DNA of 64,000 nucleotides from Melioribacteraceae bacterium (GTDB taxonomy: Bacteria > Bacteroidota > Ignavibacteria > Ignavibacteriales > Melioribacteraceae): positions 1-64,000 of the forward strand of contig JALVFE010000026.1 in NCBI GenBank assembly GCA_027030245.1. The letters are read 5' to 3'. Of this stretch, positions 310-1,554 are shown piece by piece. The translations under genes were made by a program, and so were the position numbers. The stretch's first letter is position 1. Each line of letters opens with the position of its first letter. A model generated the notes under the pieces. It made no database searches, was not told the origin of the DNA, and saw only the letters and a list, made by a program, of their open reading frames with translations.

Positions 310-381
310 TCCGCGTTAGCTCAATGGTAGAGCATTCGGCTGTTAACCGAAGGGTTGTAGGTTCGAGTCCTACACGCGGAG
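310..381 (+). tRNA. tRNA-Asn (anticodon GTT)
   Basis: A complete 72-base cloverleaf is visible. The acceptor stem TCCGCGT (310-316) pairs with ACGCGGA (374-380). The anticodon stem TTCGG/CCGAA carries loop CTGTTAA with anticodon GTT. The T-arm is GTAGGTTCGAGTCCTAC. CCA is not encoded. A Rho-independent terminator follows within 10 bases. The 3' part of this gene, from the D-arm GAGC onward, is repeated twice downstream in damaged form beside GIY-YIG genes. Confidence 0.96.
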
Positions 382-390
382 CAAAATTTA

Positions 391-416
391 CCCCAAATTT
401 ATTTTTGGGGTTTTTT
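391..416 (+). terminator. Rho-independent terminator of tRNA-Asn
   Basis: CCCCAAA (391-397) pairs with TTTGGGG (404-410) and is followed by TTTTTT. The hairpin ends just before the first GIY-YIG start codon at 423, so that gene is either read at low level through the terminator or has another promoter. The same hairpin recurs at 760-785 and, weakened, near 1129-1152. Confidence 0.8.
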
Positions 417-422
417 ATTTGT

Positions 423-680
423 ATGAAGTTTTACCTCTACATATTGCAATCCCTTTCCGCTGATAAATTTTACATCGGTGTTTCTCAAAATCCAGAACAT
501 AGATTAGTTTATCATAATTCCATTGAAAAGGGATTTACTTCAAGATACCGCCCTTGGAAACTCGTTTTCACCCAAGCTTTTGATTCTAAATCCGATGCCC
601 TAAAAGCCGAAAGAAAACTTAAAAGTTGGAAGAGTAAAGCAATGATACGGAAAGTTATTTCCGGGGAAATTAGAATTTGA
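423..680 (+). CDS. GIY-YIG nuclease family protein, copy 1
   Basis: An 85-residue small GIY-YIG domain protein (UPF0213/YhbQ-like). The start MKFYLYILQS and YIGVSQNPEHR form the GIY and YIG elements, followed by the conserved Arg in HR, a Tyr/His-Asn segment (VYHNS), and the C-terminal ALKAERKLKSWK helix with the Glu typical of the family. This family can cut DNA; the cellular role of these short forms is not settled. The start was placed at ATG 423. The frame is open further upstream, but that stretch is the tRNA itself (it would encode VVGSSPTRG from the T-arm) and should not be annotated as protein. No clear ribosome binding site. Confidence 0.85.
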   Translation: MKFYLYILQSLSADKFYIGVSQNPEHRLVYHNSIEKGFTSRYRPWKLVFTQAFDSKSDALKAERKLKSWKSKAMIRKVISGEIRI

Positions 681-750
681 GCATTCGGCTGTTATCCCGA
701 TCGAGATCGGGATGTAGGTTCTCCAGATGAATATCGGGATACACGCGGAG
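679..750 (+). pseudogene. Broken tRNA-Asn 3' part with two hairpin insertions
   Basis: The segment keeps GAGCATTCGGCTGTTA, TGTAGGTTC and TACACGCGGAG of tRNA-Asn. The anticodon-stem 3' strand is replaced by TCCCGAT-CGAG-ATCGGGA (695-712), and the T-loop 3' side by TCCAGAT-GAAT-ATCGGGA (722-739). The 5' acceptor strand and D-arm start are absent, so it cannot fold as a tRNA. Confidence 0.8.
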
Positions 751-791
751 CAAAATTTACCCCAAATTTATTTTTGGGGTTTTTTATTTGT

Positions 792-1049
792 ATGAAGTTT
801 TACCTCTACATATTGCAATCCCTTTCCGCTGATAAATTTTACATCGGTGTTTCTCAAAATCCAGAACATAGATTAGTTTATCATAATTCCATTGAAAAGG
901 GATTTACTTCAAGATACCGCCCTTGGAAACTCGTTTTCACCCAAGCTTTTGATTCTAAATCCGATGCCCTAAAAGCCGAAAGAAAACTTAAAAGTTGGAA
1001 GAGTAAAGCAATGATACGGAAAGTTATTTCCGGGGAAATTAGAATTTGA
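792..1049 (+). CDS. GIY-YIG nuclease family protein, copy 2
   Basis: The 85-residue product is identical to that of copy 1, and the DNA is nearly identical, so the duplication is recent or the copies are homogenised by conversion. ATG 792 corresponds exactly to 423 in copy 1. It is preceded by its own copy of the CCCCAAA/TTTGGGG hairpin and a T-run, again only a few bases before the start. The TGA stop at 1047-1049 is fused to the next tRNA-derived segment. Confidence 0.85.
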   Translation: MKFYLYILQSLSADKFYIGVSQNPEHRLVYHNSIEKGFTSRYRPWKLVFTQAFDSKSDALKAERKLKSWKSKAMIRKVISGEIRI

Positions 1050-1119
1050 GCATTCGGCTGTTATCCCGATCAAGATCGGGATGTAGGTTCTCCCGATGAA
1101 TATCGGGATACACGCGGAG
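1048..1119 (+). pseudogene. Second broken tRNA-Asn 3' part with hairpin insertions
   Basis: Same layout as 679-750, with hairpins TCCCGAT-CAAG-ATCGGGA (1064-1081) and TCCCGAT-GAAT-ATCGGGA (1091-1108) at the same two positions. The hairpins therefore entered before this unit was copied. Here both second-site arms are perfect, whereas the earlier unit has TCCAGAT. Confidence 0.8.
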
Positions 1120-1159
1120 CAAAATTTACCCCAAATTATTTTTTGGGTTTTTTATTTGT

Positions 1160-1417
1160 ATGAAGTTTTACCTCTACATATTGCAATCCCTTTCCGCTGA
1201 TAAATTTTACATTGGCGTTTCTGAAAATCCCGAACGTAGATTAGTTTATCATAATTCCATTGAAAAGGGATTTACTTCAAGATACCGCCCTTGGAAACTC
1301 GTTTTTACTCAGGCCTTTGATTCTAAATCCGATGCCCTAAAAGCCGAAAGAAAACTTAAAAGTTGGAAGAGTAAAGCAATGATACGGAAAGTTATTTCCG
1401 GGGAAATTAGAATTTGA
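1160..1417 (+). CDS. GIY-YIG nuclease family protein, copy 3
   Basis: 85 residues, with the same family features as copies 1 and 2 but diverged: the loop after YIGV reads SENPERR instead of SQNPEHR, and several silent changes are visible. The reading frame is intact, which argues for at least some past selection. It is followed by a short eroded tRNA fragment and one more TCCCGAT-GA-ATCGGGA hairpin (1432-1447). Confidence 0.85.
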   Translation: MKFYLYILQSLSADKFYIGVSENPERRLVYHNSIEKGFTSRYRPWKLVFTQAFDSKSDALKAERKLKSWKSKAMIRKVISGEIRI

Positions 1418-1554
1418 GCATCCCGCTGTTATCCCGATGAATCGGGATTTATACTAACTAAAATTACAATCCATTTATTCCTACAAAATTAATCCCGATT
1501 TTTATCTCAAATCTTTATATCTTTTAATAAACTTAATCAATTACCGAGGTTATC

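Follow-up and report, generated by a model that had tools for sequence, protein, structure and literature searches.

Integrase-type islands, ICEs and prophages that are targeted to tRNA genes use the gene, restore its 3′ end and leave a displaced 3′ fragment. In the REP/RAYT systems (REPtrons), a small nuclease gene lies beside palindromic repeats, and ORF-less tandem derivatives occur. SegB of T-even phages is described as a free-standing GIY-YIG homing endonuclease whose gene is located among tRNA genes (PMC13096335, PMC2988022), and which cuts inside tRNA genes at RAWTSGAAC and drives tandem amplification of tRNA-segB (PMC13096335). For fungal mitochondria, mobile ORFs of Allomyces and Glomus are described that swap the C-terminus of atp6, atp9, cox2 or nad3. 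They bring a target 3′ end together with an endonuclease ORF (GIY-YIG in atp9), the native end is displaced downstream and the hybrid gene is expressed (PMC3630166).

The locus examined here lies in a 64,000-nucleotide stretch of DNA from a Melioribacteraceae bacterium that was analysed as a whole and is called the window below. As with segB, a GIY-YIG gene is lodged at tRNA genes, adjoins its presumed target and is present or absent between related genomes. In contrast to phage-borne SegB, the nucleases of these cassettes are chromosomal single domains of about 85 aa, each tied to one tRNA and nearer to UPF0213/Slx1, and the available parts of the SegB papers report no displaced palindrome-marked tRNA copies. 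The cassettes resemble the fungal ORFs in joining a target 3′-end copy to an endonuclease while the native end is displaced, here on bacterial tRNA genes. The fungal elements, however, are larger, mitochondrial and placed in protein genes, and the available part of that paper describes neither palindromic marking nor tandem arrays. Since the cassettes occupy tRNA genes of bacterial chromosomes and not mitochondrial protein genes, we do not class them with the fungal mobile ORFs. With integrase-type elements they share the use of the tRNA gene, the restored 3′ end and the displaced fragment, but they lack an integrase, measure about 370 bp or less, carry a palindrome-altered displaced piece and also exist in a mirror form with 5′ parts. 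Compared with REP/RAYT, the nuclease has a GIY-YIG fold and no Y1 (HUH) transposase (PF01541 only), and the repeats are tRNA pieces beside the parent tRNA. UPF0213/YazA and Slx1, the closest solved sequences, are to our knowledge neither tRNA-linked nor mobile, and we know of no counterpart to the palindromic marking and the ORF-less arrays. A search of the open-access literature found no paper joining GIY-YIG to tRNA-adjacent cassettes in bacterial chromosomes or to REP-type repeats.

Results

A tandem array behind tRNA-Asn

Between positions 310 and 1447, the window holds an intact tRNA-Asn(GTT), the sole tRNA called there by ARAGORN, and behind it three GIY-YIG ORFs that each have a displaced 3′ part of tRNA-Asn after them (Table 1). 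A 300-nt match recurs in three copies, spaced 369 and 368 bp apart. One unit consists of a terminator-like hairpin, an 85-aa GIY-YIG ORF and a displaced part of tRNA-Asn; the GIY-YIG gene is its sole ORF and an integrase gene is absent. An earlier note on this DNA had proposed a tandem array of three units of tRNA-Asn 3′ part and GIY-YIG gene, which the 300-nt repeat, ARAGORN and PF01541 confirm. Its suggestion of a minimal cassette that targets a tRNA and encodes a nuclease but no integrase is likewise supported by the 368–369 bp unit.

The sequence that opens the displaced piece, GAGCATTCGGCTGTTA, stands at 330 in the tRNA (position 21, D-arm) and again at 679 and 1048, and the TGA stop of the GIY-YIG ORF overlaps the first two bases of the piece. 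The junction inside the D-arm that the earlier note had named therefore holds for the window, but not as a fixed point, since across loci the displaced repeat starts at about tRNA position 10 to 44. Apart from the palindromes, the displaced parts reproduce the tRNA sequence exactly; degeneration is confined to the last copy. None of them scores as tRNA any longer in ARAGORN or Rfam searches of the window. A group I intron or another known RNA was rejected, as Rfam gave nothing above the gathering score in the window except tRNA. GIY-YIG copies 1 and 2 are identical and copy 3 carries two nonsynonymous and seven synonymous changes. Given the identity of copies 1 and 2, the triplication inside the window can be plain segmental amplification. 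The ORF finder runs the first GIY-YIG ORF through the tRNA (window 324–680, MVEHSAVNRRVVGSSPTRGAK...), and database proteins with such tRNA-derived N-termini probably have mis-annotated starts. Synteny of the M19 gene that adjoins the array is not conserved within the genus.

Table 1. Features of the tRNA-Asn array, in window positions
Feature	Position	Strand	Evidence or remark
Intact tRNA-Asn (GTT), target gene	310..382	+	ARAGORN; Rfam tRNA 73.8 bits
Terminator-like hairpin and T-run (CCCCAAATTTATTTTTGGGG TTTTTT), between tRNA-Asn and first GIY-YIG ORF	391..416	+	sequence
GIY-YIG nuclease ORF copy 1, 85 aa, ATG at 423	423..680	+	Pfam PF01541 E 3.9e-16; catalytic residues present
Displaced tRNA-Asn part 1	679..751	+	tRNA 21-36, palindrome, 47-55, palindrome, 62-73; exact piece matches
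Perfect palindrome TCCCGATCGAGATCGGGA, in place of anticodon arm 3′ strand	695..712	+	
Palindrome-like TCCAGATGAATATCGGGA, in place of T-loop side	722..739	+	
Terminator-like hairpin, unit 2	760..785	+	copy of 391-416 hairpin
GIY-YIG nuclease ORF copy 2, protein identical to copy 1	792..1049	+	ORF list
Displaced tRNA-Asn part 2, layout as part 1	1048..1120	+	
Palindrome TCCCGATCAAGATCGGGA, anticodon arm 3′ strand	1064..1081	+	
Palindrome TCCCGATGAATATCGGGA, T-loop side	1091..1108	+	
Terminator-like hairpin, unit 3, slightly varied	1129..1153	+	copy of 391-416 hairpin
GIY-YIG nuclease ORF copy 3	1160..1417	+	dN 0.010, dS 0.145 vs copy 1
Displaced part 3, degenerate: GAGCATCCCGCTGTTA and palindrome TCCCGATGAATCGGGA	1416..1447	+	

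Cassettes elsewhere in the genome and the genus

The source genome encodes 14 GIY-YIG domains (PF01541), three in large proteins and 11 in small standalone ones. Of these 11 genes, nine follow the 3′ end of a tRNA directly and share its strand. Five tRNAs are involved: Asn with three copies, Lys and Pro-cgg with two each (the latter at a contig end), Asp and Ser-tga. Behind each of the nine comes a palindrome-bearing displaced part of the tRNA concerned; the exception is the last Pro copy, after which the contig stops. Displaced pieces without a GIY-YIG ORF were found at four more tRNAs (Ser-cga, Arg-acg and two Met), and behind tRNA-Ser-cga they form three 121-bp ORF-less units. ORF-less and nuclease-bearing units have in common only tRNA parts and palindromes. 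At Ser, Lys, Pro and Arg, two 11-nt mini-hairpins make up an insert that separates TTC from GA in the T-loop. Some draft contigs end inside arrays (G000:C16 at 647077; G003:C173 and C19), so that draft genomes give minimum array copy numbers only.

The search for the same tRNA without a cassette, which the earlier note had proposed, yielded an empty site with both flanks conserved as well as differing occupancy at orthologous tRNAs. At tRNA-Ser-cga, the source genome carries ORF-less units of about 345 bp in total where G003 has an empty site with homology on both flanks; this cleanest empty site is marked by units without a nuclease ORF. For tRNA-Leu-caa, G001 has an occupied site and the source genome an empty one; here the shared flank is the upstream one only. 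tRNA-Asn, with three units in the source genome, has none in G003, the upstream stretch being shared and the downstream stretch different. At tRNA-Lys of G003 a displaced palindrome copy is kept and a GIY-YIG ORF was not found. These four comparisons indicate that presence, absence and decay coexist. Occupancy also differs within the genus at tRNA-Ser-tga.

Distribution in the phylum

GIY-YIG genes were found in all 39 genomes of the organism's own group (39/39), often in tandem. In three single-contig genomes, 7/11, 6/6 and 4/11 of the standalone GIY clusters are ≤600 bp from a tRNA, where 0.1–0.2 are expected (P = 5e-10, 4e-11 and 3e-5), and all 17 are on the same strand. These location statistics rule out chance placement, and the presence of tandem arrays in single-contig genomes rules out an assembly artefact. 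Among 80 loci from named genomes, mostly Bacteroidota, 62 have the GIY-YIG gene ≤600 bp from a tRNA, all on the same strand, and most of the 62 carry displaced pieces of that tRNA. Of 90 genomes drawn evenly from the phylum, 58 encode a relative of the nuclease. The best 29 of these loci include 23 that are tRNA-linked, all same-strand, and 20 with displaced pieces; the query came mostly from tRNA-linked members and the tRNA-linked fraction leans that way. Displaced pieces were present at 0/28 and 1/28 tRNAs in genomes with a single GIY match, compared to 9/42 and 4/39 in GIY-rich genomes (Fisher P 0.005). The arrangement occurs at many tRNA genes in Bacteroidota and nearby groups, and the GIY-linked tRNAs span more than 15 isoacceptors. 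The earlier note had considered a single resident gene, multiplied by unequal crossover only, as the outcome that would speak against its reading; instead, cassette copies were found at many tRNAs. In phages and plasmids, only distant GIY relatives with <60% identity were seen, and no carrier of the tRNA cassette was identified among them.

The units exist in two mirror forms. In the window type, the tRNA comes first and displaced 3′ parts follow, while in the other form, seen at L064, L073 and L077, the tRNA comes last and displaced 5′ parts precede each nuclease gene. Many loci have upstream ORF-less arrays built of a leader, tRNA 1–29, a palindrome and tRNA 43–53. Palindrome-rich arrays of displaced pieces, mostly without a GIY-YIG ORF, were also noted beside Ser, Asn and Lys tRNAs in G038:C1 (2480500-2484500, 1362000-1368000, 1048500-1051500 and 16500-19500). 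Two related species share the genes that flank a tRNA-Val array, but the array is inverted between them (L122 and L127).

Palindromes in the displaced tRNA copies

The displaced copies match the host's own tRNA, but anticodon, T or D loops or arms are swapped for near-perfect palindromes. In the last 22 nt of the displaced pieces, the own host's tRNA was closer than that of another host in 284/286 comparisons. The commonest palindrome is TCCCGA..TCGGGA; sequence varies, structure and position are far more constant. Of 112 distinct segments by which tRNA sequence is replaced or interrupted, 77 contain a perfect stem of ≥6 bp, compared to a mean of 2.4 and a maximum of 5 after shuffling, a control that rules out palindromes by chance. 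By site, 64 replacement segments affect the anticodon arm or its 3′ strand, 33 the T arm or T-loop and 10 the D-loop side, the last mainly in displaced 5′ parts. Contrary to the earlier note, in which the displaced halves merely decay, the palindromic replacements are thus ordered and the remainder matches the tRNA. A tRNA 3′-end repeat is present on both sides of the unit and is interrupted by palindromes at most loci. About half of the displaced 3′ parts (27/59) have an intact T-loop without mismatch, hence no single target explains all. With tRNA identity controlled, palindrome position tracks the GIY tree weakly (17/200 shuffles as low), and the idea that it is set purely by the nuclease lineage was set aside. 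As an annotation trap, ARAGORN calls a palindrome-bearing displaced tRNA-Val copy (L128:3248-3320) tRNA-Ile(TAT).

Away from any tRNA, TCCCGA..TCGGGA palindromes are also embedded in other hairpin repeats, and the flanks of such palindromes are complementary in 7 of 22 cases, with about 1.6 expected. At L293-L312 of a relative (G026), scattered copies apparently take the place of the apex in other hairpin repeats, for example GTCATTGCGAGGA..GACGAAGCAATC.

The nuclease and its relatives away from tRNAs

The nuclease is an 85-aa single domain (PF01541 only) with no extra DNA-binding domain. In the alignment of tRNA-linked members the catalytic residues are nearly invariant (R27 and E63 in 111/113 rows each, H31 in 113/113), and dN/dS is 0.03–0.15 in most pairs where it could be estimated. 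Judged by these ratios, the tRNA-linked genes are under purifying selection. The nearest solved relatives by sequence are UPF0213/YazA and Slx1 (PDB 1ywl, 1zg2, 4xlg), not I-TevI, and the NCBIfam model for group I intron endonucleases gave 13.3 bits, below its cut-off of 56. The window protein had no PHROGs match and the Lys copy a weak homing-endonuclease match. The cassette nuclease thus shows neither the separate DNA-binding domain nor the sequence kinship that would place it with SegB or I-TevI. In a tree of 152 GIY domains, tRNA-linked members are mostly apart from dispersed-repeat members, and they cluster by isoacceptor (51 label changes, 105 when shuffled).

Most of the non-tRNA standalone GIY genes examined sit inside dispersed hairpin repeats. 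Such genes were seen at L002 and L005 in the source genome and at L062, L063, L065, L072, L074, L082, L084, L085 and L178; the repeats are of the GTCAT..ATGAC and TTCGACAAGCTCAG types, and in several cases the stop codon lies inside the repeat. At L067:1480-1760 and L075:1480-1760, GIY-YIG ORFs are apparently inserted in protein genes, which by eye are a tyrosine integrase (insert between HTFRHS and FATHLL) and a four-helix/IVP-type gene. These inserts of about 290 bp are bounded by inverted repeats of 11–13 bp (CCCGTGAGATA, ACCCCGTCAAATA). Around tRNA-linked GIY genes, terminal inverted repeats are rare and not general.

Discussion

In our judgement these units are probably, though far from certainly, minimal selfish homing cassettes targeted to tRNA genes, each made of a single-domain GIY-YIG gene and a partial copy of the target tRNA, as a rule its 3′ part and terminator. 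One tRNA copy is whole and another, incomplete one is displaced beyond the nuclease gene; units amplify in tandem and ORF-less derivatives exist. As the earlier note had supposed, the tRNA remains intact since the end it lacks is provided by the unit. As there is no integrase, the natural engine would be a nuclease-made break with repair, or single-crossover entry of an excised circle.

We infer homing and the role of the palindromes as follows. The nuclease would break an element-free copy of its tRNA gene, in or next to the gene. Repair from an element-bearing chromosome, or an excised circle acting through the shared tRNA stretch, would copy the cassette in and leave an intact tRNA, the nuclease gene and a displaced copy. 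Tandem arrays may arise from further breaks or from simple unequal exchange, as with SegB in T-even phages. In the displaced copy the palindromes would most likely remove the nuclease target and reduce the length of sequence shared with the intact tRNA, which would protect this copy from cleavage and keep it from serving in clean excision. The nuclease gene is probably transcribed only when the tRNA terminator is read through.

SegB is a strong precedent for such a mechanism. In our own reading, the reverse complement of its motif, GTTCSAWTY, fits the tRNA T-loop GTTCGAATC. If classed by mechanism, the cassette would on the best reading belong with endonuclease-driven, target-restoring homing elements, nearest to SegB and the fungal mitochondrial tail-swap elements. 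Against homing, the intact tRNA itself should stay a target unless the site needs flanking sequence. About half of the displaced 3′ parts have an intact T-loop, palindrome position is tied weakly to nuclease lineage, the nuclease has no extra DNA-binding domain and is kin to UPF0213/Slx1, very similar palindromes occur away from tRNAs, the units at the cleanest empty site are ORF-less, and Leu-caa and Asn share the upstream flank only.

The intact T-loops, the weak tie of palindrome position to nuclease lineage and the resemblance to UPF0213/Slx1 raise a different reading, akin to REP/RAYT, which we consider rather unlikely. Here the substrate of a putatively structure-specific, Slx1-like nuclease would be the palindromes, in cruciform or single-stranded hairpin form, and its action would mobilise or amplify hairpin repeats. 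The modified tRNA copies would be one repeat class and the intergenic GTCAT..ATGAC-type repeats around non-tRNA GIY genes another. Such an activity is consistent with palindromes that keep structure and location while their sequence varies, with the little that ORF-less and nuclease units share, and with replaced sites that are nearly all hairpin arms of the tRNA. The location of most examined non-tRNA GIY genes within dispersed hairpin repeats, the excess of complementary flanks around TCCCGA..TCGGGA inside other repeats, and the presence of Slx1 among the nearest solved structures point the same way. However, the tRNA-linked GIY genes form largely separate, tRNA-specific lineages, and the rarity of terminal inverted repeats at tRNA loci also argues against it.

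It is improbable that no mobility is involved, that is, that an old, vertically inherited tRNA-linked nuclease gene was duplicated by slippage or unequal crossover, with palindromes selected only because truncated tRNAs are harmful. Simple tandem duplication predicts identical copies such as 1 and 2 of the window, and the GIY lineages are tied to their own tRNA and partly to host clades. But occupancy differs in one genus at Ser-cga, Asn, Leu-caa and Lys, the arrangement extends over more than 15 isoacceptors, genomes poor in GIY genes are almost free of displaced pieces, and avoidance of harm needs no perfect palindromes. Very improbable is a guard function, in which the nuclease and tRNA parts altered at crossover sites shield tRNA attachment sites from integrase-carrying elements that use the anticodon or T-loop: the palindromes do lie on the anticodon arm and T-loop, where integrase crossover usually takes place, but one intact tRNA attachment site remains unexplained, as do the upstream 5′ arrays and the D-loop palindromes.

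For the homing cassettes that we favour, the size of about 370 bp, with ORF-less forms of about 75–120 bp, would rank them among the smallest self-contained mobile cassettes, and essential tRNA genes would be parasitised without being broken. Such a cassette is widespread in the phylum and easily missed in annotation because the ORF reads through the tRNA. Tentatively, the data may reflect an undescribed bacterial mobile class, possible rather than probable, whose single-domain GIY-YIG nuclease mobilises or amplifies DNA hairpins: palindrome-swapped tRNA copies here and, in a sister lineage, dispersed intergenic hairpin repeats. If true, this class would be a GIY-YIG counterpart of REP/RAYT. 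The cassettes also make it testable whether hairpin repeats can be mobilised or amplified by a nuclease of the GIY-YIG kind, and they give the many standalone GIY-YIG genes of Bacteroidota a plausible, likely role.
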